Shown one piece after another: positions 11,598 through 47,100 of a DNA stretch of 64,000 nucleotides. The notes under the pieces are model-generated. The model searched no databases, was not told the DNA's origin, and saw only the letters and a list, made by a program, of their open reading frames with translations. The stretch lies in assembly GCF_001429625.1 (NCBI RefSeq), contig NZ_LMSU01000001.1, positions 2,044,003 through 2,108,002 on the forward strand. Direction: 5' to 3'. Source of the DNA: Nocardioides sp. Soil805 (GTDB taxonomy: Bacteria; Actinomycetota; Actinomycetes; Propionibacteriales; Nocardioidaceae). The position numbers were made by a program, and so were the translations under genes. The stretch's first letter is position 1. Each line of letters starts with the position of its first letter.

Positions 11598-13952
11598 GTG
11601 AGTGCGAAGCGCAGAGCAAACGGTCCGGCGGTCAAGCGTCGACCCACCAAGCCCCGCAGGACCGCCGGGCAGCGGGCCCGCAGCATCCTCAAGAAGCTGC
11701 TGCTGGTGGGACTGGTCGTGGGACTGCTCGGGGCGATCGCCCTCTTCGTCCTCTACAAGGCGATCTCGATCCCGGCGCCCAACGAGGCCTTCAAGGCGCA
11801 GACGACCTTCGTCTACTACAGCGGGGGCAAGCAGGAGCTCGGCACCTTCTACGACGACCAGAACCGCGTCTCCATCCCGCTGAAGGAGATGCCGCAGCAG
11901 ATGCAGGACGCGGTGGTCGCCGCGGAGAACCAGACGTTCTGGACCGACCAGGGCATCGACCCCAAGGGCATCGTGCGCGCCGCGTTCTCCAACGCCCGCG
12001 GCAACGACCGCCAAGGCGCGTCGACGATCACCCAGCAGTACGTCAAGATCCTCTACCTCTCCAGCGAGCAGAGCTACCAGCGCAAGATCAAGGAAGCCGT
12101 CGTCTCGCTGAAGATCCAGAACGAGCTGAGCAAGGCCGAGATCCTCGAGGGCTACCTCAACACCATCTACTTCGGTCGCGGCGCGTACGGCATCCAGGCG
12201 GCCGCGCAGGCGTTCTTCGACAAGGACGCCGCGCAGCTCAACCTGCGCGAGAGCGCGGTGCTCGCCACGGTCCTCAACAACCCGTCGCGCTACGACCCCG
12301 ACGGGGGCAAGGAAGCGCGCCAGGCGCTCAAGGAGCGCTACACCTACGTCCTCAAGGCCATGGTCGACACCGAGGCGATCACCGCCGAGCAGGCGGAGAA
12401 GGCGGTCAAGCGGCTGCCCGAGTTCCCCGAGATCGCGGTGCAGAGCCAGTACGGCGGCCAGCGCGGCCACATGCTGGCGCTGGTCAAGAAGGAGCTGCTC
12501 GCCAGCGGCGAGTTCAGCGAGGAGGAGATCGACGGTGGCGGCCTGCGGATCACCACCACCTTCACCCCGGAGGCGATGAAGGCCGCCGCCGAGGGCGTCA
12601 TCGAGCAGCGCCCCGAGGGATTCGGCGACAAGGAGCTGCACGTCGGCGCCGCCACGGTCGAGGTCGGCACCGGCGCGCTGCGCGGGTTCTACGGCGGCCA
12701 GGACTACCTCGACTCGCAGATCAACTGGGCCGCGACCGGTGGCATGGCCGGGTCGACGATCAAGCCGCTCACCATCGCCGCGGCGATCCAGGACGGCTTC
12801 GAGATCACCGACAGCTTCGAGGGCAACTCGCCCTACGAGTTCCCCGACGGCACCGAGGTCCGCAACGAGGGCACCGGCTCCGACGGCCTGGGCAACGACT
12901 ACGGCGAGTCCGTGTCCCTCGTGGAGGCCGCCGAGGAGTCGATCAACACCGCCTTCGTGGACATGTCCGCCTCGATGACCGACGGCCCGCAGCAGATCTA
13001 CGACATGGCGCGCGACCTCGGCATCCCGGGCAACGACCCCTCCCGGCAGTACCCCGGCATCCCGAACCGCTCGACCGACTTCCTGCCCGACGACACCCTG
13101 ATCACGCTCGGCAAGGGCCGCGTCAGCCCCATCAACATGGCCAACGCCTACGCCTCCATCGCCAGCGGCGGCGAGCGGGCCGACGTGCACGTCGTCGAGA
13201 AGGTCGTCGACAGCAACGGCGAGGTCCGCTACTCCCGCAAGAACTCCACCCGCACGGCGGTCGACGAGGACATCGCGGCCGACACGTCGTACGCCATGCA
13301 GCAGATCGTGCAGAACGGCACCGGGCAGGCCGCGCTGGCGCTGGGCCGCCCGGCGGCCGGCAAGACCGGCACCGCGACGAACGACAAGGACCAGGTCTCC
13401 TCGGCCTGGTTCGCCGGCTACACCCCGCAGCTGGCCACCGCGGTGATGTACGTGCGTGGCGACGGGGACAACCAGCTCGACGGCTGGCTGCCGTCGTACT
13501 TCGGTGCCGTCTACCCGGCCCAGACCTGGACCGCGATCATGGAGCGGGCCATGGACGGCATGGACGTCGAGGAGTTCCCGCCGCCCGCGTACGTCGAGGG
13601 CGACGCGCCGTCGGAGGGCCACGAGCCCTACGTCCCGCCGGCCACGACCAGCACGCCGACGCCGACCCCGACGACCCCGACGAAGAAGCCGAGCCGGACG
13701 CCGACGGTGCAGACCCAGGAGCCGTCGCCGACCGAGACGCCCACCGAGACGCCGACCGAGACGGTCACCCCCACGCCGACCCCGACCCCGACGCCGACCC
13801 CGACGCCCACGCCGACGGTGCCGGCGCCGACCACGCCGACCGAGACGGTGCCGCCCCCGTCCGCACCGACGACGGCGAGCCCGACGGTGGCGCCGTCGCG
13901 CACGACGTTCGCCTCGCCGACCCGGCGGCGCCTGGCCTCCTGGCGTCCGTGA
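11598..13952 (+). CDS. Bifunctional class A penicillin-binding protein (transglycosylase/transpeptidase)
   Basis: 784 residues from GTG 11598. A basic cytoplasmic head (residues 1-30) precedes one membrane helix ([20 protein letters not shown]). The GT51 glycosyltransferase domain shows the catalytic glutamate region [16 protein letters not shown] and [12 protein letters not shown]. The transpeptidase domain has the SxxK motif in GSTIKPLT, SxN in SINTAF and KTG in AGKTGTA. The last 120 residues are a low-complexity Pro/Thr/Glu tail, probably spanning the wall. It polymerises and cross-links peptidoglycan outside the membrane. The divergent padR promoter lies 160 bases upstream. A PonA1/PonA2-type name would fit, but I cannot choose between them. 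Confidence 0.93.
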
Positions 13953-37704: not shown

Positions 37705-38873
37705 CCGGGCCCCTCGACGGGGTCCTGGTCGTCGACCTCTCCCGCGCGCTGGCCGGCCCGCACGCCACGATGATGCTGGGCGACCTCGGTGCCCGGATCG
37801 TCAAGGTCGAGGCGCCGGGCCACGGGGACGACACCCGGGGCTGGGGTCCGCCCTTCGTCGGGTCGCCGGAGGAGCGCCAGTCGACGTACTTCCTCTCGGC
37901 CAACCGCAACAAGGAGTCGATCGCCCTCGACCTCAAGGCGGACGCCGACCGCGAGCTGCTGCTGCAGCTCGTCGACCGCGCCGACGTGCTGGTCGAGAAC
38001 TTCCGGACCGGCGTGCTGGAGCGCCTGGGCCTCGGCATCGACTCGCTCCTCGAGCGCAACCCGCGTCTGGTCGTGCTGTCCATCACCGGTTTCGGCCACG
38101 ACGGCCCCGAGGGCGGGCGTGCCGGCTACGACCAGATCGCCCAGGGCGAGGCCGGCCTCATGTCGCTGACCGGGTCCGGACCCGACGACCCGCAGCGGGT
38201 CGGCGTACCGATCGGCGACCTGCTCGCCGGCATGTACGGCGCGTACGGCGTGCTCGCCGCGCTGCACGAGCGCTCGACCACCGGCCGCGGCCAGGTCGTG
38301 CGCACCTCGCTGCTGTCGGCCGTCGTGGGGGTGCACGCCTTCCAGGGCACCCGCTGGACGGTGGCCGGCGAGGTCGGCCGGGCGCAGGGCAACCACCACC
38401 CCTCGATCTCCCCCTACGGGCTCTTCCGCTGCCGGGAAGGCGCGGTGCAGATCGCGGTGGGCAGCGAGGGGCTGTGGCGTCGGCTGTGCGACGGCTTCGG
38501 GATCGACCCGGCCACGCCGGGCCTGGAGACCAACGGCGACCGCGTCAACGCACGCGAGCGCACCATCGAGGTCGTCGAGGCGGCCTTCGCCGACTGGGAC
38601 GCCGAGGCCCTGCTCGCCCGGCTCGCCGAGGTCGGCGTACCGGCCGGCAAGGTGCGGACCCTCGACGAGGTCTACGAGTGGGAGCAGACGCGCAGCCAGG
38701 GACTGCTGGTCGAGGTCGACCACGCGTCGCTCGGGCCGGTGACCCTGCCGGGTCCGCCGCTGCGCTTCTTCGACCCGTCGGGCAGCGAGACCACCCGCCG
38801 CGACCACGCCGCTCCGCCGCTGCTCGACCAGCACGGCGCCGCCGTGCGCGGCTGGCTGGAGGAGCAGGAGTGA
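37701..38873 (+). CDS. Class III (CaiB/BaiF) CoA-transferase
   Basis: 390 residues from GTG 37701 (GTGA overlap with matC). It moves CoA from an acyl-CoA donor to a free acid through an enzyme-aspartyl thioester. Family landmarks: LSRALAGPHATMMLGDLGARIVKVE, ENFRTGVLERLG, ITGFGHDGPEGGRAGYDQIAQ, and the catalytic aspartate in VPIGDLLAGMYG (residue 173). Set between a MatC carrier and a carboxyltransferase, it most likely forms the CoA ester of the imported acid, in place of the malonyl-CoA synthetase MatB found in classical mat operons. Confidence 0.88.
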   Translation: MTGPLDGVLVVDLSRALAGPHATMMLGDLGARIVKVEAPGHGDDTRGWGPPFVGSPEERQSTYFLSANRNKESIALDLKADADRELLLQLVDRADVLVENFRTGVLERLGLGIDSLLERNPRLVVLSITGFGHDGPEGGRAGYDQIAQGEAGLMSLTGSGPDDPQRVGVPIGDLLAGMYGAYGVLAALHERSTTGRGQVVRTSLLSAVVGVHAFQGTRWTVAGEVGRAQGNHHPSISPYGLFRCREGAVQIAVGSEGLWRRLCDGFGIDPATPGLETNGDRVNARERTIEVVEAAFADWDAEALLARLAEVGVPAGKVRTLDEVYEWEQTRSQGLLVEVDHASLGPVTLPGPPLRFFDPSGSETTRRDHAAPPLLDQHGAAVRGWLEEQE

Positions 38874-40333
38874 GCGCCGCGACCGCTCCGGAGTCCCGCC
38901 GCCGGTGGGGCGCCGAGGAGCTGCTGGACCTCGTGCTCGACGAGGGGTCCTGGCAGTCGTGGGACCGCCCCATCGACATCTCCGGCCACGACGAGGGCTA
39001 CCAGCGCGAGCTGCGGGCCGCGCGGGAGAAGGCGGGCACCGACGAGTCGGTCATCACCGGTCGCGGCCTGGTCCGCGGCCGGCCCGTGGCGGTGGTCGCC
39101 AACGAGTTCCGCTTCCTCGCCGGCTCGATCGGGCGGGACGCGGCGGGTCGCATCACTGCCGCCGTGCGCCGCGCGACGGCCGAGGGCCTGCCGCTCCTGG
39201 CCACCACGGCGTCGGGCGGCACCCGCATGCAGGAGGGAACGCCGGCGTTCGTCGAGATGGTCGAGATCACCCGGGCGATCGGGGCCCACAAGGCGGCCGG
39301 GCTGCCCTACCTCGTGCAGCTGCGCCACCCCACGACGGGCGGCGTCTATGCCTCGTGGGGCTCGCTGGGCCACGTGACGGTCGCCGAGCCCGGCGCGTTG
39401 GTGGGCTTCCTCGGCCCGAAGGTCTATGAAGCGCTCAACGGCGAGCCGTTCCCGGCGGGCGTCCAGCAGGCGGAGAACCTCGCCGCCAAGGGCGTCATCG
39501 ACGCCGTCGTCGCGGCCGAGCAGCTGCCCGAGCTCGTCGACCGGTCGCTGCGGGTGCTGCTCGACGCCCCCGAGCCGCCGTCACTGCCGCGCCGCGACCC
39601 CACGGCGCTGACCACCCGCACGGCGTGGGAGTCGGTCGGCATCACCCGCCTGCCCGGGCGGGCCGGGGTACGCGACCTGCTGCGGTACGGCGCCAGGGAC
39701 ACCCTGCGCCTGCGCGGCACCGACGAGGGGGAGCGCGACGAGACCGTGATCGTGGCGCTGACCCGGCTCGACGGCCAGCCGTGCGTGCTCGTCGGCCAGG
39801 ACCGGACCCGCCAGGACGCCGACCGGGCGATGGGACCGGCCGCGCTGCGGGAGGCCCGGCGCGCGATGAACCTCGCCGAGGAGCTCGGCCTGCCGCTCGT
39901 CACCGTGATCGACACCCCCGGCGCCGAGCTCTCGGTCTCCGCCGAGGAGCGGGCGGTGGCCGGGGAGATCGCCCGGTGCATCGCCACCATGACCCGGATG
40001 CGCGTGCCGACCCTCGCGGTGCTGCTGGGCCAGGGCTGCGGGGGCGGCGCGCTGGCGCTGCTGCCGGCCCGCCGGGTGCTGGCCGCGCAGCACGCGTGGC
40101 TCTCGCCGCTGCCGCCCGAGGGCGCCAGCGTCATCGTGCACGGCGACACCGCGCACGCCGAGGAGATGGCCACCCGTCAACAGGTCCGGGCGCTCGACCT
40201 CGCCGCCAACGGGACGGTGCACCGCATCGTCCCCGAGCGTGAGGACGACAGCGCCGAGTCCCTGGCCCGTGCCGTCGCGGCGGAGTGCGCCGCCATGCTG
40301 GTGAGCATGGGGGTCGAAGCCCGGCCGCGCTGA
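38870..40333 (+). CDS. Fused AccD-AccA-type carboxyltransferase without zinc finger
   Basis: 487 residues from GTG 38870 (GTGA overlap). The first half follows the beta subunit: PLLATTASGGTRMQEGTPAF (oxyanion hole), HPTTGGVYASWGSLGHVTVAEPGALVGFLG. The second half follows the alpha subunit: ALREARRAMNLAEELGLPLVTVIDTPGAELS and LLGQGCGGGALALLPARRVL, then PPEGASVIVHGD. The AccD zinc finger is missing and no biotin carboxylase, biotin carrier or phosphoribosyl-dephospho-CoA acyl carrier gene is present. It may decarboxylate the CoA ester made by the preceding enzyme, like the MdcD/MdcE pair of malonate decarboxylase, or borrow a carrier encoded elsewhere. Confidence 0.85.
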   Translation: MSAATAPESRRRWGAEELLDLVLDEGSWQSWDRPIDISGHDEGYQRELRAAREKAGTDESVITGRGLVRGRPVAVVANEFRFLAGSIGRDAAGRITAAVRRATAEGLPLLATTASGGTRMQEGTPAFVEMVEITRAIGAHKAAGLPYLVQLRHPTTGGVYASWGSLGHVTVAEPGALVGFLGPKVYEALNGEPFPAGVQQAENLAAKGVIDAVVAAEQLPELVDRSLRVLLDAPEPPSLPRRDPTALTTRTAWESVGITRLPGRAGVRDLLRYGARDTLRLRGTDEGERDETVIVALTRLDGQPCVLVGQDRTRQDADRAMGPAALREARRAMNLAEELGLPLVTVIDTPGAELSVSAEERAVAGEIARCIATMTRMRVPTLAVLLGQGCGGGALALLPARRVLAAQHAWLSPLPPEGASVIVHGDTAHAEEMATRQQVRALDLAANGTVHRIVPEREDDSAESLARAVAAECAAMLVSMGVEARPR

Positions 40334-40413
40334 CCGGGCGCTTCCTGGCCGCTGGGGCGTGCCGAGCGGGCGTTTCCTGGCCGCTGGGGGGTGCCGAGCG
40401 GGCGATTCCTGGC
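40332..40413 (+). repeat. Tandem-repeat array A (32-bp unit, 2.6 copies) at the operon's 3' end
   Basis: Units start at 40332, 40364 and 40396. The 18-base core GA[C/G]CGGGCG[C/T/A]TTCCTGGC is followed by a 14-base part CGCTGGGGCGTGCC or a close variant. The first base lies inside the TGA stop of the carboxyltransferase gene. The core is related to that of array B. Confidence 0.85.
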
Positions 40414-40417
40414 TTCG

Positions 40418-40456
40418 GTGTGGCTTCGGTGTCACCTGGTGGCACCGAAGCCACAC
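40418..40456. terminator. Terminator after the matC operon
   Basis: A perfect 14-bp stem, GTGTGGCTTCGGTG (40418-40431) and CACCGAAGCCACAC (40443-40456), with an 11-base loop, directly follows repeat array A and precedes the convergent SDR gene; it could serve both strands. Confidence 0.75.
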
Positions 40457-40509
40457 CCAGTGGGTCGACCGGGAGTCCCGCCGACCTCGGCCCCTCGGTC
40501 TGAGGTCCG

Positions 40510-41481
40510 TCAGGCGAAGGCGTCCACGCCGGTGAGCTCGGCCGAGACCTGCCAGAGCCGGGCCGCCTGCTCAGGGTCGGTGGCCCAGTCGCGCACCCCA
40601 CGGCGCGCGCCGTCCTCGACGTACGACACGGCCACGTCGACGTCCTCGCAGTAGACCCCGCCCTTGCCCTCGAGCTGGGGTGAGGTCGCGGCCCACACCT
40701 GGGTGGCGGCGCCCTGCTCGGGCGTCTTGAACTCGGCGCGCGGCGTGCCGTCCTCGTCGAACCAGCCCATCGCGACCTGCTCCTCGCGGGGGAGGTGACG
40801 CTGGAGCGGGGTGAGGATCCCGCCGGGGTGCAGGGCGAAGGCGCGCACCCCCTTGCCGCGCTCGTGGGTCTGGCCGAGCCGGTCGAGGTGGACGGCGAAG
40901 AGCACGTTGGCGGTCTTGGCCTGGCCGTAGGCGGTCCACTTCTCGTAGCCCGACTCGAACATCAGGTCGTCCCAGCGGATGGGGCTGCTCAGGTGGCCCA
41001 TCGAGGAGACGCTCACGACCCGGGCGCCCGGCGCGAGTGCCGGCCACAGCCGGTTGACCATGGCGAAGTGGCCGAGGTGGTTGGTGGCGAGCTGGGCCTC
41101 CCAGCCCGGACCGACGCGGGTCTCGGGGCATGCCATGATGCCGGCGCTGTCGATGACCATGTCGAGCACGACACCGCTGGCCAGGATGCGGTCGGCGAAC
41201 GCCTCGACGCTGGTCAGGTCGCCGAGGTCGAGCGTCTCCACCGTGACGCCGTCGATGCCGGCGAGCGCCTCGGCGGCCGTCTCGGGACGACGCGCGGGGA
41301 CGATCACCGCTGCGCCGGCCTTCGCGAGCGCCCGCGTCGTCTCCAGCCCGATGCCGGAGTACCCGCCGGTCACCAGGGCGGTCCGGCCGGTCAGGTCGAT
41401 CCCGGCGAGCACCTCGTCGGCGGTGGTGTGGCGGTCGAAGCCCGAGCCGATCGGCTCCTGCGGGGTGGGGGTGTAGGTCAT
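40510..41481 (-). CDS. Short-chain dehydrogenase/reductase (retinol-dehydrogenase-like)
   Basis: 323 residues. Classical SDR motifs: cofactor loop TALVTGGYSGIG, NxxG equivalent ATNHLGHF, catalytic serine VVSVSSMGHL and YGQAK (Y-x-x-x-K). The ARR after the second strand favours NADP(H). The length and the C-terminal region resemble the light-dependent protochlorophyllide reductase/retinol dehydrogenase group. The substrate is unknown. Repeat array B fills the space between it and the upstream gene on the same strand. Confidence 0.87.
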   Translation of the reverse strand: MTYTPTPQEPIGSGFDRHTTADEVLAGIDLTGRTALVTGGYSGIGLETTRALAKAGAAVIVPARRPETAAEALAGIDGVTVETLDLGDLTSVEAFADRILASGVVLDMVIDSAGIMACPETRVGPGWEAQLATNHLGHFAMVNRLWPALAPGARVVSVSSMGHLSSPIRWDDLMFESGYEKWTAYGQAKTANVLFAVHLDRLGQTHERGKGVRAFALHPGGILTPLQRHLPREEQVAMGWFDEDGTPRAEFKTPEQGAATQVWAATSPQLEGKGGVYCEDVDVAVSYVEDGARRGVRDWATDPEQAARLWQVSAELTGVDAFA

Positions 41482-41503
41482 GTCCCGAACGTAGCCCGCT
41501 GCT

Positions 41504-41617
41504 GTCAGGAAGTGCCCGGTCGGCGGGATCGAGGTGTCAGGAAGTGCCCGGTCGGCGGGATCGAGGTGTCAGGAAGTGCCCGGTCGGCGGGATCGAGGTG
41601 TCAGGAAGTGCCCGGTC
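41504..41617 (-). repeat. Tandem-repeat array B (32-bp unit, 3.6 identical copies)
   Basis: Plus-strand units start at 41504, 41536, 41568 and 41600. Read on the minus strand the unit is the core GACCGGGCACTTCCTGAC plus ACCTCGATCCCGCC. It begins one base after the stop of the gene at 41619-43070 and ends 22 bases before the SDR start. Core and period match array A. The full copies are identical to one another, implying recent expansion. Confidence 0.9.
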
Positions 41618-41618
41618 G

Positions 41619-43070
41619 TCAGGTGCGGGCGCTCGCGTAGCCGAGCGCGGCGGCCAGCCCGAGGGCGCTGCGGGGCTCGTACGCCGCACGCCACAGGCCG
41701 CCGTGCACCGCGGCGTACGCCTCGTCCTGCCACGGGTGCTCGTGGACCGGCTGCTCGGTGCTGAGGTCGTGCACGAGCAGGGCCGCCATCAGCGTGTTGG
41801 CGGTGTCGGGCTCGAAGACCTCCACGCCGAAGCGGTGCGCCCCGGCGAAGGCGGCGGCGAGCGCGCGGTTCTTGACCACCGAACGGGTCCGGGTGGACGG
41901 GGCGACGTGGAAGGAGACCAGCTGGCCGTCGCGGCGGGCGACGGCGGCCCGCCAGCGCTGGATCCGCTTGGCCAGCGCGTAGTTGGGGCCCTGGACCGGC
42001 ACGATGGCGTCGCTGATGCCCGGGTCGGCGGCCGGCGGGTAGGCCCGGTGCAGCAGCCGGCCCCGCGTCGCCCAGCGCAGCGGCCGCCCGACCAGCTTGG
42101 CGGCGCCGGAGCGCTCGCGGTAGGCACGGGTGGAGTGCTCGACCGCCTCGCGGGGCACGGCGAAGGCGTCGGTCGGCGTGGCCAGGAAGGCCAGGGCGGT
42201 GTCCGGGCGCGCGGCGGTGAGCCGGGTGGCCAGCGCGTCGGCGGCGGCGGCGACGCGCACGTGGGTGGCGCCGTCGGCGTACAGGTAGTTGCCCAGCACC
42301 AGCCGCCCGTCGAGGCGGGCCAGCCAGTCGGAGACCGCGGGGACCTCGGCGAGCAGGTCCGCGCCGTACGACCCGTCCTCGGAGCCGGACGGGTCGAAGG
42401 GCGCGAGCAGGCGGCCGGCCCCGGCGCGGGCGGTGCGCTCCAGGCGCTCCCACAGGGCCTCGCGCGGGAGGTCCACGGCGGCCACGGTGGCGCCCCAGCG
42501 CAGCAGCGCGGCGAGCGGCCCCATCTCGGCGCCGGCGCCGAGCACCGCGACGGTGCGGCCCTCGAGCCGCAGCCACTCCGGGTGCTCGACGACCTCCCCG
42601 ACGGCCGCGGCCGCCGACGGCTCCAGCACCCCGCGCGCGACCCACTCCTCGAGCTGGGCGAGCAGGTCGGCGCCGCGCAGCTCGCGCCCGCGGTAGGTCA
42701 GGACCAGCTCGGCCTGCCGCTCGCCCTCGCCGAGGACCTCGTGGGTGCCGAGGGTGCGCACCGCGCGCGCGGTGGCCAGCGAGTCGAGCGGCTGCTCGGT
42801 CCCGTCCGGGGCCACGACGACGAGGGTGCGGCGTACGGCCTCGAGGCCGGCCTCGGCGATCGTCGTCCAGGCCTCGGGGGTGGCGATGCCTGCCTCGACG
42901 AGCCGGCGGAAGTGCAGCACGTAGCCGCTGCGCCAGGCCGTCTCCTGCTCGGCGCCGAGGGCCCCGACCGGGTCGACCGGGCGCAGGGCGGCGGCCACGA
43001 CGGCCCGGCCCGCCCGGGTGGTGCTGCGGCGGCCGTCGCTGTCGGCGGGGAAGGAGACTCCATGCGTCAT
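41619..43070 (-). CDS. Uncharacterised protein with Rossmann-like nucleotide-binding segment
   Basis: About 483 residues from ATG 43070. A dinucleotide-binding pattern GRTVAVLGAGAEMGPLAALLRWGATVAAVDLP lies at about 190-220. Other conserved-looking parts are WRSGYVLHFRRLVEAGIATPEAW near the start and GPNYALAKRIQRWRAAVARRDGQLVSFHVAP in the C-terminal third. No membrane helix. I do not recognise a characterised family. Divergent from the TetR gene 78 bases away, which may regulate it. Confidence 0.6.
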   Translation of the reverse strand: MTHGVSFPADSDGRRSTTRAGRAVVAAALRPVDPVGALGAEQETAWRSGYVLHFRRLVEAGIATPEAWTTIAEAGLEAVRRTLVVVAPDGTEQPLDSLATARAVRTLGTHEVLGEGERQAELVLTYRGRELRGADLLAQLEEWVARGVLEPSAAAAVGEVVEHPEWLRLEGRTVAVLGAGAEMGPLAALLRWGATVAAVDLPREALWERLERTARAGAGRLLAPFDPSGSEDGSYGADLLAEVPAVSDWLARLDGRLVLGNYLYADGATHVRVAAAADALATRLTAARPDTALAFLATPTDAFAVPREAVEHSTRAYRERSGAAKLVGRPLRWATRGRLLHRAYPPAADPGISDAIVPVQGPNYALAKRIQRWRAAVARRDGQLVSFHVAPSTRTRSVVKNRALAAAFAGAHRFGVEVFEPDTANTLMAALLVHDLSTEQPVHEHPWQDEAYAAVHGGLWRAAYEPRSALGLAAALGYASART

Positions 43071-43148
43071 GGACCCATCATGGCCGGACCCGGTCGGAGG
43101 CACGCCCGTCGCCCCGCGGCTACGGTGGAGGCCACGAGAGGAGCTGCG

Positions 43149-43886
43149 ATGCCGTCACCGGACGACGTGGAGGACGCGGACGCCGCGCTGGTCAAGGGTG
43201 ATGCCCCTCCCTCACGGCACACGCCGCTCGACCGCGGGCTGATCCTCGAGGCCGCGATCACCTTCATCGACGAGCAGGGCCTGCCGGGGCTGACGATGCG
43301 GCGGCTCGGCCAGGCGCTGGGCGTCGAGGCGATGGCGCTCTACCGCTACGTCGCCGGCAAGGAGGAGCTCCTCGACGGCGTCGTGGACCGCCTGGTCGAG
43401 GGGATGCGCACCGACGCCGAGGTCCTCGACAGCCCCAGCGACGGCTGGCAGGACTTCGTGCAAAGACTCGCCCACGGCGTACGACGGGTGGCGCTGGCGC
43501 ACCCGAAGGCGTTCCCGCTGGTCGCGTCCCGACCGCCCGAGGCGCCGTGGCTGCGACCGCCGCTGCGCAGCCTGGAGTGGGTGGAGGCCTTCCTGGTCGG
43601 ACTCGAGTCGGAGGGCTTCTCCGACGAGGCGGCGGTCGCGAGCTACCGCGCCTTCACCAGCTTCCTGCTCGGCCACCTGCTCCTAGAGGTGTCCACGCAC
43701 GGGGCTGACGTCGGCCCGCTCGACGTGCTGGAGGAGTCGTCCGAGCCGGGGCTGGAGGACTACCCCACGGTGAGCCGGCTGCGCCGCCAGCTCGCCCAGG
43801 ACCACGCCAACGTGGAGTTTGAGGAGGCGCTGGAGGAGCTGCTCAACCGGCTCGCGCAGGTCCGCCAGGAGGGCAACGCGGGCTGA
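43149..43886 (+). CDS. TetR family regulator with TetR-type C-terminal domain
   Basis: 245 residues from ATG 43149 behind GAGAGGAG. The helix-turn-helix is LTMRRLGQALGVEAMALYRYVAGKEELLDGVVDRL, and the C-terminal part (FPLVASRPPEAPW, SYRAFTSFLLGHLLLE) resembles the ligand domain of the tetracycline repressor group. About 30 extra residues, acidic, precede the DNA-binding domain. The divergent Rossmann-like gene is the obvious target candidate. Confidence 0.85.
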   Translation: MPSPDDVEDADAALVKGDAPPSRHTPLDRGLILEAAITFIDEQGLPGLTMRRLGQALGVEAMALYRYVAGKEELLDGVVDRLVEGMRTDAEVLDSPSDGWQDFVQRLAHGVRRVALAHPKAFPLVASRPPEAPWLRPPLRSLEWVEAFLVGLESEGFSDEAAVASYRAFTSFLLGHLLLEVSTHGADVGPLDVLEESSEPGLEDYPTVSRLRRQLAQDHANVEFEEALEELLNRLAQVRQEGNAG

Positions 43887-43977
43887 GCCCGTCCCGGGAG
43901 ACGGGGGGAGGACGCCACCCCTGAGGTGGCACCCCTAGGGCTGGGACCGCTAGGTGGTGGCGCCGGGCTGTGCTTGG

Positions 43978-43990
43978 TTTACAACGTAAA
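43978..43990. promoter_or_regulatory. Perfect palindrome before the MscS-like gene
   Basis: TTTAC-AAC-GTAAA is a perfect 5-3-5 inverted repeat 38 bases upstream of the ATG at 44028 and is strikingly A/T-rich for this DNA. It may be an operator or include the -10 element (TACAAC). Confidence 0.5.
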
Positions 43991-44027
43991 TCGATCCTCA
44001 CCACTCCCCGTTGGAGGCACCACCCTC

Positions 44028-44771
44028 ATGGAAGACACCCTTCAGGACGGCCTGCGCGATGGCGTCAGCACCGTCTCCGAGTTCCTGCCCAAGCTGCTGC
44101 TGTTCCTCGTCGTCCTCATCGTCGGCCTGCTCATCGCCAAGGGCATCGCCAAGGCCCTCAACGCGATCCTCGAGCGGGTCGGCTTCGACCGCGCCGTCGA
44201 GCGCGGCGGCATCAAGCGCGCGATGGCCAACTCGAAGATGGACGCCAGCGACGTGGTCGCCAAGCTCATCTACTACACGCTCGTGCTCTTCGTGCTGCAG
44301 CTCGCGTTCGGCGTCTTCGGCCCGAACCCGATCAGCGACCTGATCGAGCGGGTCATCACCTTCCTGCCGAGCCTGGTCGTCGCGATCATCATCGTCGTGG
44401 TCGCCTCGGCGATCGCCGCGGCCGTCAAGACCCTCATCGAGGGCACTCTCGGCGGGCTGTCCTACGGCCGGACCATCGCCAACATCGCGTCCGTGTTCAT
44501 CCTGTTCCTCGGCATCGTGGCCGCGCTCAACCAGGTCGGCGTCGCCACCACGGTGACCCTGCCGGTGCTGGTCGCGATCCTGGCCACCGTGGCCGGCGTG
44601 ATCATCGTCGGCGTCGGCGGCGGGCTGGTCCGTCCCATGCAGCAGCGCTGGGAGGGCTACCTCTCCACGGCCGAGCGGGAGGTGCCGCGCATCAAGCAGC
44701 ACGCCGCAGCGGCCCCGTCGGTGCAGGAGCAGGCCCGTCACCAGGCCCCCTGGGTCGACGACCGGGTCTGA
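44028..44771 (+). CDS. Small mechanosensitive-channel-related membrane protein
   Basis: 247 residues. Four to five helices: LLLFLVVLIVGLLIAKGIAKAL, IYYTLVLFVLQLAFGVFG, LPSLVVAIIIVVVASAIAAAV, IASVFILFLGIVAALNQVG and LPVLVAILATVAGVIIVGVGGGL. The repeated pattern of a hydrophobic helix followed by an amphipathic one (LNAILERVGFDRAVER) is that of the conserved TM-helix family seen at the N-terminus of some MscS channels; the beta domain of MscS is missing. A role in osmotic stress is plausible. GGAGG lies ten bases before the ATG. Confidence 0.72.
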   Translation: MEDTLQDGLRDGVSTVSEFLPKLLLFLVVLIVGLLIAKGIAKALNAILERVGFDRAVERGGIKRAMANSKMDASDVVAKLIYYTLVLFVLQLAFGVFGPNPISDLIERVITFLPSLVVAIIIVVVASAIAAAVKTLIEGTLGGLSYGRTIANIASVFILFLGIVAALNQVGVATTVTLPVLVAILATVAGVIIVGVGGGLVRPMQQRWEGYLSTAEREVPRIKQHAAAAPSVQEQARHQAPWVDDRV

Positions 44772-44792
44772 GCACCACCCGCCCGCACGCCG

Positions 44793-44825
44793 CAGCCCCC
44801 GTCCCCCCAGTGGGGGCGGGGGCTG
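44793..44825. terminator. Bidirectional terminator
   Basis: CAGCCCCCG and CGGGGGCTG form the outer 9-bp stem, with an inner CCCCC/GGGGG stem across a one-base bulge. It sits between the convergent MscS-like and FHA genes. Confidence 0.75.
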
Positions 44826-44831
44826 TGCCGT

Positions 44832-45728
44832 TCAGGAGGCGCTGTCGTCCGGGTCGGGGACCGCCTGGAGCCGCTCCCGAGGGGGCTGGGGTCGCTGCCG
44901 GCCGAGCTCCCCGCCGATGCGACCGCCGTGGGGCCGGCCGTGGTCGGCGTACTCCTCGCGGGTGAAGGCCAGGATCCGCAGCGGGCCGGGACCGAGCTCG
45001 ATGCGGGTCGAGGTACGAAGGATCGAGGAGCCGACCCGGCGCCCGTGCACCCGCAGCTCGGCGTCGTCGAGGGCGTGGACGACGAACTCGTCGGCATCGT
45101 CGTGGACGACCTCGGCGTGGACCGGGGCCAGGCCGGGCAGCACGATGTCGCAGCCGGGGTCGGACCCGATGGTCGTGCGGTCGTCCTGGAGCCAGTGCGT
45201 GGGGGTGTCGGTGCGGGTGATGCCGTCACCCGGGACCTCGACGAGCCGCGGGAGGCCGCCGCGGCCGGGGTCGTGGGTCGTCGTCACCCGGCGCACCGGG
45301 CGCCGCAGGAAGGTGGGGGCCACCGGGAACGGCGTCGCCGGGGGCAGCAGGCCGGGACCCGGCAGGGTCGCGACGTCGTTGCGCAGCCGACCGCGTCCGG
45401 CGGACACGGCGCCCCGCAGGCCGGCGACGCGCATGTGGGCACTGCGGGTGAAGGGACGCTGCCACCAGGGACAGCGCACGTTTCCCAGGGTCACGAGCGG
45501 TACGTCGTCGGCGTCGCGCACCTGCACCGACACCCCGAGCTCGGCGAGCTCGGCGGCGATCCGGCGCAGGCCGGCCGCGTCGGCCCCGCCGGCGAACGCC
45601 ACCGGATCGCTGACCCGCAGGACCAGGGCGCTGCCCCGCCCCTGGAGGGAGCCGGTGACCGGCTCGTGGCCGGGGGTGTCGACGCGGAAGCAGACGTCGG
45701 CGTCGATGCGGGTCCGCAGGGTCGTCAC
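44832..45728 (-). CDS. FHA domain protein
   Basis: 298 residues from GTG 45728. The C-terminal third is a forkhead-associated domain that binds phosphothreonine: DRTTIGSDPGCDIVLPGLAPVHAEVVHD holds the conserved Gly, Ser and His. The N-terminal half is a separate domain (RIDADVCFRVDTPGHEPVTGS; VAFAGGADAAGLRRIAAELAELGVSVQV) unknown to me, with WWQRPFTRSAHMRVAGLRGA after it. The start overlaps the preceding 81-residue gene (GTGA). Likely a partner of one of the Ser/Thr kinases. Confidence 0.8.
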   Translation of the reverse strand: MTTLRTRIDADVCFRVDTPGHEPVTGSLQGRGSALVLRVSDPVAFAGGADAAGLRRIAAELAELGVSVQVRDADDVPLVTLGNVRCPWWQRPFTRSAHMRVAGLRGAVSAGRGRLRNDVATLPGPGLLPPATPFPVAPTFLRRPVRRVTTTHDPGRGGLPRLVEVPGDGITRTDTPTHWLQDDRTTIGSDPGCDIVLPGLAPVHAEVVHDDADEFVVHALDDAELRVHGRRVGSSILRTSTRIELGPGPLRILAFTREEYADHGRPHGGRIGGELGRQRPQPPRERLQAVPDPDDSAS

Positions 45729-45970
45729 GCCGCCTCCGGTGCGGGACCCCGGGTGGTGTCGTCGTCGGTGGAGATGCGCAGGGTGCCGTCGATCTTCCAG
45801 GTCGCGCGCGGCGCCTTCGGGCCGGTGTCGCGAGGCACCTCGACGGCCATGTCCACGAACTGGTAGTTGATCGCGGCGCGCCGGCCGGTCAGGAACGACC
45901 ACATCTCCCGACCGAGGTCGCTCCAGTCCACGACCGAGTCGGCACGGAAATCAGTCTGGTCCTGCGTCAT
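45725..45970 (-). CDS. Small protein coupled to the FHA gene
   Basis: 81 residues from ATG 45970 with GGAGG upstream. It contains DWSDLGREMWSFLTGRRAAINYQFVDMAVEVPRD and ends with a Thr/Asp-rich tail. No known family. The pattern W-S-F-L-T-G-R-x-A-A-I-N-Y suggests an alpha/beta domain binding the FHA protein or a partner, as they are translationally coupled. It is divergent from the MerR-DICT gene across a 79-base region with an inverted repeat. Confidence 0.65.
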   Translation of the reverse strand: MTQDQTDFRADSVVDWSDLGREMWSFLTGRRAAINYQFVDMAVEVPRDTGPKAPRATWKIDGTLRISTDDDTTRGPAPEAA

Positions 45971-46002
45971 GGTGAGCCTCCGGGTGCTGTAGGGTCTGGC
46001 TG

Positions 46003-46022
46003 AAGTTCGACACAGAACTTCG
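46003..46022. promoter_or_regulatory. Inverted repeat between merR-DICT and the FHA pair
   Basis: GAAGTTC-GACACA-GAACTTC is a perfect 7-6-7 inverted repeat in the 79-base divergent region. MerR proteins bind such repeats between -35 and -10 elements, so it is the probable site for the MerR-DICT regulator acting on itself and on the FHA pair. Confidence 0.65.
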
Positions 46023-46049
46023 ACAGACTGTTTAGGTTATGGAGCGAGT

Positions 46050-46931
46050 ATGGACACGAGCGTCGCCTCACCGCAAGGGTCGGACGATCTGTTGACCATC
46101 GGCGAGCTGTCGAAGCACGCCGGAATCTCCACCCAGCTGGTGCGGGCCTGGGAGCAGCGGTTCGGGTTCCCCGAGCCGGTCCGGCTGCCCAGCGGGCACC
46201 GCCGCTACACCGCCGCGGACGTCCGCGCCGTCCAGCGGGTCGTCGAGGAGCGCGACCGCGGCCTGCGCCTCGAGGAGGCCATCGCGGCCACCCTCCGCTC
46301 CGGACAGCTGGGGGAGGGTGCCTCGGTGTACGCCGCGCTGAGCCGTCGCCACCCCGAGCTCACGTCGTACACGCTGACCAAGCGCACGCTGCTGGCGCTG
46401 TCGTGGGCCATCGAGGACGAGGCCGTCGCGCAGTCCTCCCACGGCATCCTGCTCGGCACCTTCCAGCGGGGCCGCTACTACGGCCGGTCCCGTCGCCGGT
46501 GGGAGGACCTGGCCCGCACCGCCCGGGCGGCGGTGGCCATCGCCGACTTCGAGTCCCACGACGACGAGTCCCGCCCGGCGACGGTCGGCCTCCCGGCGGA
46601 CTCCCCGCTGCTGCGGGAGTGGATCGTGGTCCACGAGGCTCCCGACTTCGCGGTCGCGCTCGTGGCCTTCGAGCTGCCGGGCCACGGCGCGACGGGCGAC
46701 GACCGGCTCTTCGAGGCGCTGTGGTCGGTCGACGGCGGCGTCGTGCGCGACGCGGCCGTGCTGACCGCCCAGGCCGGCGCCTCGGCCGGCTCCCGCGCGT
46801 CGGCCGACGTGCTCGCCGTCCTCGAGCAGACCCCCACGCGGCCGAGCACCCCGCCGGCCGCGGCGACCGCGGTCTTCAACCGGATGGTCGCCTACACGGA
46901 CGGTACGTCGCTGCGCGCCCGGCGTTCCTGA
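46050..46931 (+). CDS. MerR family regulator with C-terminal DICT sensory domain
   Basis: 293 residues. The N-terminal MerR-type HTH is clear: LTIGELSKHAGISTQLVRAWEQRFGFPEPVRLPSGHRRY (residues 15-53). The C-terminal part, with LLALSWAIEDEAVAQSSHGILLGTFQRGRYYGRSRRRW and ALVAFELPG, is the DICT domain, found with diguanylate cyclases, two-component systems and light-related regulators. Its stop codon lies inside the first unit of repeat array C. The likely target is the divergent FHA gene pair. Confidence 0.85.
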   Translation: MDTSVASPQGSDDLLTIGELSKHAGISTQLVRAWEQRFGFPEPVRLPSGHRRYTAADVRAVQRVVEERDRGLRLEEAIAATLRSGQLGEGASVYAALSRRHPELTSYTLTKRTLLALSWAIEDEAVAQSSHGILLGTFQRGRYYGRSRRRWEDLARTARAAVAIADFESHDDESRPATVGLPADSPLLREWIVVHEAPDFAVALVAFELPGHGATGDDRLFEALWSVDGGVVRDAAVLTAQAGASAGSRASADVLAVLEQTPTRPSTPPAAATAVFNRMVAYTDGTSLRARRS

Positions 46932-47060
46932 GGTGCGGCGTTCCTGAGGTGCGGTGTTCCTGAGGTGCGGTGTTCCTGAGGTGCGGCGCACCTGAGGTGC
47001 GGCGTACCTGAGGTGCGGCGTACCTGAGGTGCGGCGTACCTGAGGTGCGGCGCACCTGAG
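46921..47060 (+). repeat. Tandem-repeat array C (16-bp unit, nearly nine copies)
   Basis: Units of GGCGTTCCTGAGGTGC start every 16 bases from 46921 to 47049. The first four read GTTCC or GTGTTCC; later ones read GCACC or GTACC, giving GCACCT-G-AGGTGC, a perfect small palindrome. The MerR-DICT stop codon (TGA) is in the first unit, and the last unit ends 40 bases before the aldo/keto reductase start. The TTCCTGA heptamer and a period half of 32 bp link it to arrays A and B. Confidence 0.9.
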
Positions 47061-47100
47061 GGTGGGGGCGGCCTCCCGCCGTCGCCGTACTGTCGAGGAC

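Follow-up and report, generated by a model that had tools for sequence, protein, structure and literature searches.

Tandem arrays of a 32-bp direct repeat lie at gene ends throughout the 4.4-Mb genome of this Nocardioides (G000), most of them starting at or near the stop codon of a gene and running in the direction of that gene. We read these arrays as candidate transcript 3'-end elements, similar to REP/BIME elements, that would substitute for hairpin terminators or act alongside them, and from the sequence comparisons given here we put this reading at about an even chance. The arrays were first seen in a 64,000-nt window (the whole stretch of DNA that was analysed, bases 2044003-2108002 of contig 1). 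Their reach beyond the window is that of a genome-wide family, far larger than a preliminary description of the window had stated.

That description had placed three arrays (A, B and C), each at a stop codon, and the positions hold. The features concerned are as follows.
38870..40333, plus strand: gene before array A, acyl-CoA carboxylase carboxyltransferase (gene call; Pfam PF01039, Carboxyl_trans, E 4e-56).
40332..40413, plus strand: array A, period 32 (verified at 40335-40413), with the 32-bp unit CGGGCGNTTCCTGGCCGCTGGGGNGTGCCGAG in 2.5 copies.
40416..40457, no strand: perfect hairpin with a 19-bp stem directly 3' of array A, between convergent genes (from sequence and fold).
40510..41481, minus strand: short-chain dehydrogenase gene (gene call; Pfam PF00106), codirectional and starting shortly past array B.
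41503..41618, minus strand: array B, 3.6 copies, 100% identical, of the 32-bp unit CGACCGGGCACTTCCTGACACCTCGATCCCGC, period 32.
41619..43070, minus strand: gene before array B (gene call; no Pfam family).
46050..46931, plus strand: gene before array C, MerR-type regulator with a DICT domain (Pfam PF13411 and PF10069).
46920..47061, plus strand: array C, 8.9 copies of the quasi-palindromic 16-bp unit CGGCGTWCCTGAGGTG, period 16.

The TGA of the carboxyltransferase gene sits at the CGA position of the first unit of array A, and array B begins immediately 3' of the TGA of gene 41619-43070(-). Array A folds only together with its terminator-like hairpin (z -5.3, against 0.0 for the array alone). 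Unlike array A, array B is followed by no hairpin in the fold analysis, and as RNA it is unusually unstructured (z +3.2). All three arrays had been described as related. The relation of A to B stands, whereas array C separates from them: its unit occurs at this locus only and nowhere else in the genome, and it folds strongly into a giant hairpin (z -9.3). On these grounds a link of C to A and B through their common TTCCTGA was rejected; this motif is not enough, and membership of C in the family is not shown. Array C does keep the position rule, with the MerR-DICT TGA (46929-46931) falling in its first unit. Elsewhere in the window, imperfect 6/12/18/24-bp repeats rich in ACCCCGACCGAGACG (13726-13877) lie inside gene 11718-13952(+) and probably encode a Pro/Thr-rich protein segment.

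Arrays A and B are members of one 32-bp direct-repeat family with the unit GCCGA[C/G]CGGGC[A/G]CTTCCTG[A/G]CACCT plus about 7 variable nt; the 32-bp consensus from 146 units is nnGCCGA[C/G]CGGGC[A/G]CTTCCTG[A/G]CACCTGGGGC. A genome scan with the shared core, which the preliminary description had itself named as the test of its proposal, found many further copies. The core CGGGCNNTTCCTG has 87 + 85 = 172 matches genome-wide, compared with 2 + 5 = 7 for the reversed control. A position weight matrix of the unit gave 240 matches with a score >9 in the fetched stretches and its reverse gave 0, the matrix having been trained on units from those very stretches, with a few loci overlapping. Positions around CGGGC..TTCCTG.C are nearly invariant, an invariance that arises by construction among units selected through that core. 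The variable part, 7-9 nt long, is often common within an array and differs between arrays.

Arrays consist of 2-10 direct copies of a 31-32-bp unit, and the spacing in G000 is 32 in 162 of 183 steps and 31 in 13. The unit is found at more than 50 unlinked loci, almost always in tandem arrays and never clearly inside a gene. Three loci (L050, L062 and L065) hold a second variant within their arrays, some units reading GACCTCCCCCCTTCCTG in place of GACCGGGCACTTCCTG. At the unlinked loci L054 and L065, a common inverted sequence around GGGGAACGAGATCGGCGTACG lies between facing arrays. A coding-like CGGGCACTTCCTG copy recurs identically (AGTGCCGGGCACTTCCTGTCGCAG...) at L065 489 and 867 and at L067 30, in duplicated genes at contig ends or repeats. 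A search of the arrays against Rfam returned no credible family; its sub-threshold matches were to eukaryotic miRNAs only, which we take as chance.

Position was analysed in stretches around core matches, with genes called by a codon model trained on the data. These stretches yielded 55 arrays, a lower bound that leaves out arrays without an exact core (e.g. C1:324810 and C1:755179). In 35 of the 55, no more than 8 nt separate the array start from a stop codon on the same strand, when 1.25 would be expected for random intergenic positions (P ~1e-43, a nominal value that treats arrays as independent); in 43 the distance is at most 50 nt (7.7 expected). These data bear out, genome-wide, the stop-anchored and gene-oriented rule that had been proposed from the window. 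The stop codon is often part of the repeat itself: in many arrays TGA replaces the CGA of unit 1, and in three it is supplied by the TGA of TTCCTGA. Convergent regions contain 30 of the 55 arrays, though they account for 46 of the 236 intergenic regions in the fetched stretches, proportions that are valid for a sample picked for containing arrays. Facing pairs take up 26 arrays.

Some apparent exceptions to the rule could be resolved. One array proved to lie 3' of a DUF3073 gene missed by gene calling, another lies 3' of a tRNA-Arg gene and its hairpin, and a third, in our reading of the sequence, would start within the end of its own gene. About 8 of the 55 arrays follow no gene or RNA end, and several adjoin the start of an opposite gene. 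The array after tRNA-Arg indicates that what the arrays have in common is the end of a transcript and not a stop codon. Together with arrays that start tens of nt past the stop codon, it weakens a mechanism specific to stop codons.

When arrays of G000 were folded alone, 0 of 52 had z < -2, and solitary arrays over 200 nt were at the level of shuffled sequences (mean z -0.23), compared with z -2.69 for array-free convergent gene ends of the same genome. Facing pairs fold strongly (z -4.85) because their two arrays make one long inverted repeat. A stable hairpin soon 3' of the gene is thus present in facing pairs and in array C and is missing from solitary arrays; array A and a few others also have a hairpin, so the array is not always a hairpin substitute. 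One explanation would be that hairpins do all the work, the units being decayed or paired palindromes and the arrays ordinary intrinsic terminators. The folding of facing pairs and of array C agrees with it, as do other dialects in which the unit itself can be a hairpin (e.g. G185, G222 and G223; GACcGGGCACTTCGTGCCCGTC). Half of the arrays in G000, however, have neither a facing partner nor a folding signal, and we consider this explanation quite unlikely.

Unstructured RNA exposed behind the last ribosome could alternatively serve Rho-dependent termination, with modular copies loading Rho. Arrays start where ribosomes leave, they are unstructured (array B notably so), and C slightly exceeds G in G000 (0.376 vs 0.326). 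This excess is weak, however, and YC dinucleotides are rarer than in controls (16.9 vs 18.9-19.4 per 100). Other dialects are near balance (C-G 0.023), several have folding units, and Rho would leave the fixed spacing and the sequence conservation unexplained. Composition gives Rho no clear support, and we judge its agency rather improbable.

Related arrays occur in other species. Among 150 genomes of the family, this one alone shows an expansion of the exact core. A looser motif has a match in 46 of 216 genomes, about nine of them clearly rich, and arrays are present in other Nocardioides; 52 of 61 array clusters in eight other genomes follow a same-strand gene. Judged by rbpA, the named relatives of this genome are Nocardioides, and the 3' end of that gene allows a comparison free of any motif. 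There, a direct repeat immediately follows the stop codon in many Nocardioides, its lag being 31 or 32, and these arrays are spelled very differently between species (e.g. GTCGAGTCGGCGCGTCCTGCCCGGCTGACGGC, GTCGAGCTGTCGCGTCTGCACGCTCGGATCGT and GTGACCGGGCACTTCGTGCCCGTCTGGCAGG). Across the dialects of other Nocardioides, the period is almost without exception 31 or 32. Nocardioides aequoreus (L247) has an array of period 22 at the rbpA stop codon, and G149, a close relative, has none at rbpA. No such repeat was found 3' of rbpA in Aeromicrobium, Kribbella, Propionibacteriaceae or the other families examined. When 395 genomes of the class were searched with a two-dialect pattern, matches were confined to Nocardioides and one other Nocardioidaceae genus. 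A genome of that genus (G011) carries GTCGAGTCGGCGCG-dialect arrays at L315 and other loci, with 19 pattern matches. Two genomes have different dialects at different loci.

Arrays recur at the same genes. For 16 of the 42 array-bearing genes of other species, the orthologue in this genome also bears an array (9 distinct genes), where chance predicts 1-2%; the 16 are not independent events, since the species include close relatives. Similarity between units is higher when loci within a genome are compared (0.67) than when orthologous loci in different genomes are (0.58), a modest difference in a comparison where the unit-finding pattern fixes part of each unit. This uniformity within genomes points to concerted evolution. 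Template slippage, one mechanism proposed in the preliminary description, is insufficient alone to explain why one unit occupies more than 50 unlinked loci as well as the ends of orthologous genes in other species. A mobile repeat, the second proposal, stays in play, although the Y1/RAYT transposase (PF01797) is absent from 22 of 22 genomes in a search that detected its positive controls. Among the proposed mechanisms, a role at transcript 3' ends fits best.

A selfish or neutral repeat that inserts and duplicates anywhere, survives mainly outside genes and settles at gene ends as the least harmful sites would need no function at all. The high copy number across the genome, the sporadic strength between species and the missing rbpA array in G149 suit such a history, and a clustering no more than 20 bp from 3' ends is likewise seen in REPs of other bacteria (PMC3733652). 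Neutral survival accounts for the avoidance of genes; however, it does not account for orientation with the upstream gene or for recurrence at orthologous genes. The lack of a Y1 transposase in the 22 genomes searched also speaks against a selfish repeat, as does a search of viral contigs and plasmids, which found no arrays. We therefore regard this explanation as somewhat unlikely.

The E2 junction, where genes converge, offers a further comparison. In ten species (G000, G149, G228, G315, G185, G082, G219, G222, G223 and G142) it holds facing arrays, each in the dialect of its own species, and in five (G243, G267, G118, G328 and G302) it holds one long hairpin of unrelated sequence. We read this exchange of arrays for a long hairpin as possible functional interchange. 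At the E2 junctions of G243, G267, G118 and G328 (L285, L287, L289 and L290), the different long hairpin has the common stem GGGACG..C.GGTAGG, perhaps representing a second family of gene-end palindromes.

These patterns suggest that the arrays probably mark or stop transcript ends. The arrays, with units of 31-32 bp, begin where translation stops, point downstream and mostly separate convergent genes; we propose them as putative boundary elements that stop or insulate transcription, replacing hairpin terminators or working beside them. Three features of the arrays also fit tolerated repeats. A facing pair forms one long inverted repeat able to fold as RNA, a property of its sequence, so that a hairpin is available there. 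A solitary array, having no hairpin, would have to rely on something else, and the most plausible candidate is a protein that binds one unit after another, at one site per about three helical turns. Two observations lead us to favor a protein for solitary arrays: the spacing approximates three helical turns, and it is the sequence, not a fold, that is conserved. In its full form, the model has a sequence-specific DNA-binding protein that reads directional sites about three helical turns apart and halts RNA polymerase, while the protein and the sequence it recognizes co-evolve to give the species dialects; this full form we think unlikely. The fixed spacing could instead be a relic of tandem duplication rather than helical phasing (compare the period of 22 at rbpA in N. 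aequoreus). The arrays appear to be long-lived at particular genes, and concerted evolution of some form may maintain the uniformity of sequence seen within a genome.

U-tailed hairpins are scarce in high-GC Actinobacteria, and the way in which transcripts are ended there is still debated. Oriented arrays that are anchored at matching gene ends in many species and interchange with hairpins between species would provide natural matched pairs for testing transcript ending. The dialects pose an evolutionary question of their own, namely what keeps tens of unlinked arrays alike without a visible transposase. If the protein model is true, such protein-read punctuation would be the first bacterial system in which termination depends on a protein genome-wide.

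Compared with known terminators, solitary arrays do not have the stable hairpin of intrinsic terminators. Rho-dependent terminators would call for unstructured, C-rich and G-poor RNA past the stop codon; the arrays are unstructured, with a weak C excess and no enrichment of YC. In vertebrate rDNA, tandem directional Sal-box sites 3' of the gene stop the polymerase through TTF-I. Only if the protein model holds would the arrays work alike; Sal-box terminators are eukaryotic, serve a single gene cluster and have no relation by descent to the arrays. Mycobacterial interspersed repetitive units (MIRUs) are likewise tandem repeats of Actinobacteria that overlap stop codons and run in the direction of the genes. 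They differ in having 40-100-bp units with small reading frames inside operons, between translationally coupled genes, whereas the unit described here, whose 32 bp are not divisible by 3, maintains no frame and sits mostly at convergent ends.

Neisseria DUS come in species dialects and form inverted pairs at gene ends, with thousands of dispersed copies that are also intragenic (PMC3630211). The arrays share the dialects of one repeat and the inverted pairs, and DUS dialects too contain UGA and form terminator-like pairs (PMC3630211), so the arrays could in principle be a DNA uptake or self-recognition sequence. However, there are about 240 units rather than thousands, and these occur at tens of loci as arrays only, nearly all in tandem and none clearly intragenic, unlike the mostly dispersed and often intragenic DUS. 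We consider a DUS-like role very improbable.

A close comparison is with REP elements, which are extragenic, are found between genes that converge or run in one direction, for the most part no further than 20 bp from a 3' end, reach high copy numbers, often form facing pairs and sometimes supply the stop codon (PMC3733652). REPs are palindromes, with GTAG- and CGTC-tagged classes of which the GTAG class is tied to RAYTs, and the families listed include no Actinobacteria (PMC3733652). The arrays differ from REP/BIME elements in being direct tandem repeats with a fixed 31-32-bp spacing and an orientation set by the gene. Their unit in G000 forms no stem-loop, has no GTAG in its consensus and is not palindromic, whereas some other dialects do have palindromic units, the unit hairpin of G185 and G222 ending in CGTC. 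The 22 genomes searched contain no RAYT (Y1_Tnp, PF01797), in contrast to the GTAG class. No description of such arrays came up in open-licence literature on repeats in Nocardioides, on the target sites of MIRUs or on gene-end repeats of Actinobacteria, which does not prove absence, and the stop-anchored orientation rule appears to be undescribed. The class of element, however, is already known: like REP/BIME elements, the arrays are extragenic, high-copy and near the 3' ends of genes, prefer convergent regions, form facing pairs and can provide the stop codon from the repeat.
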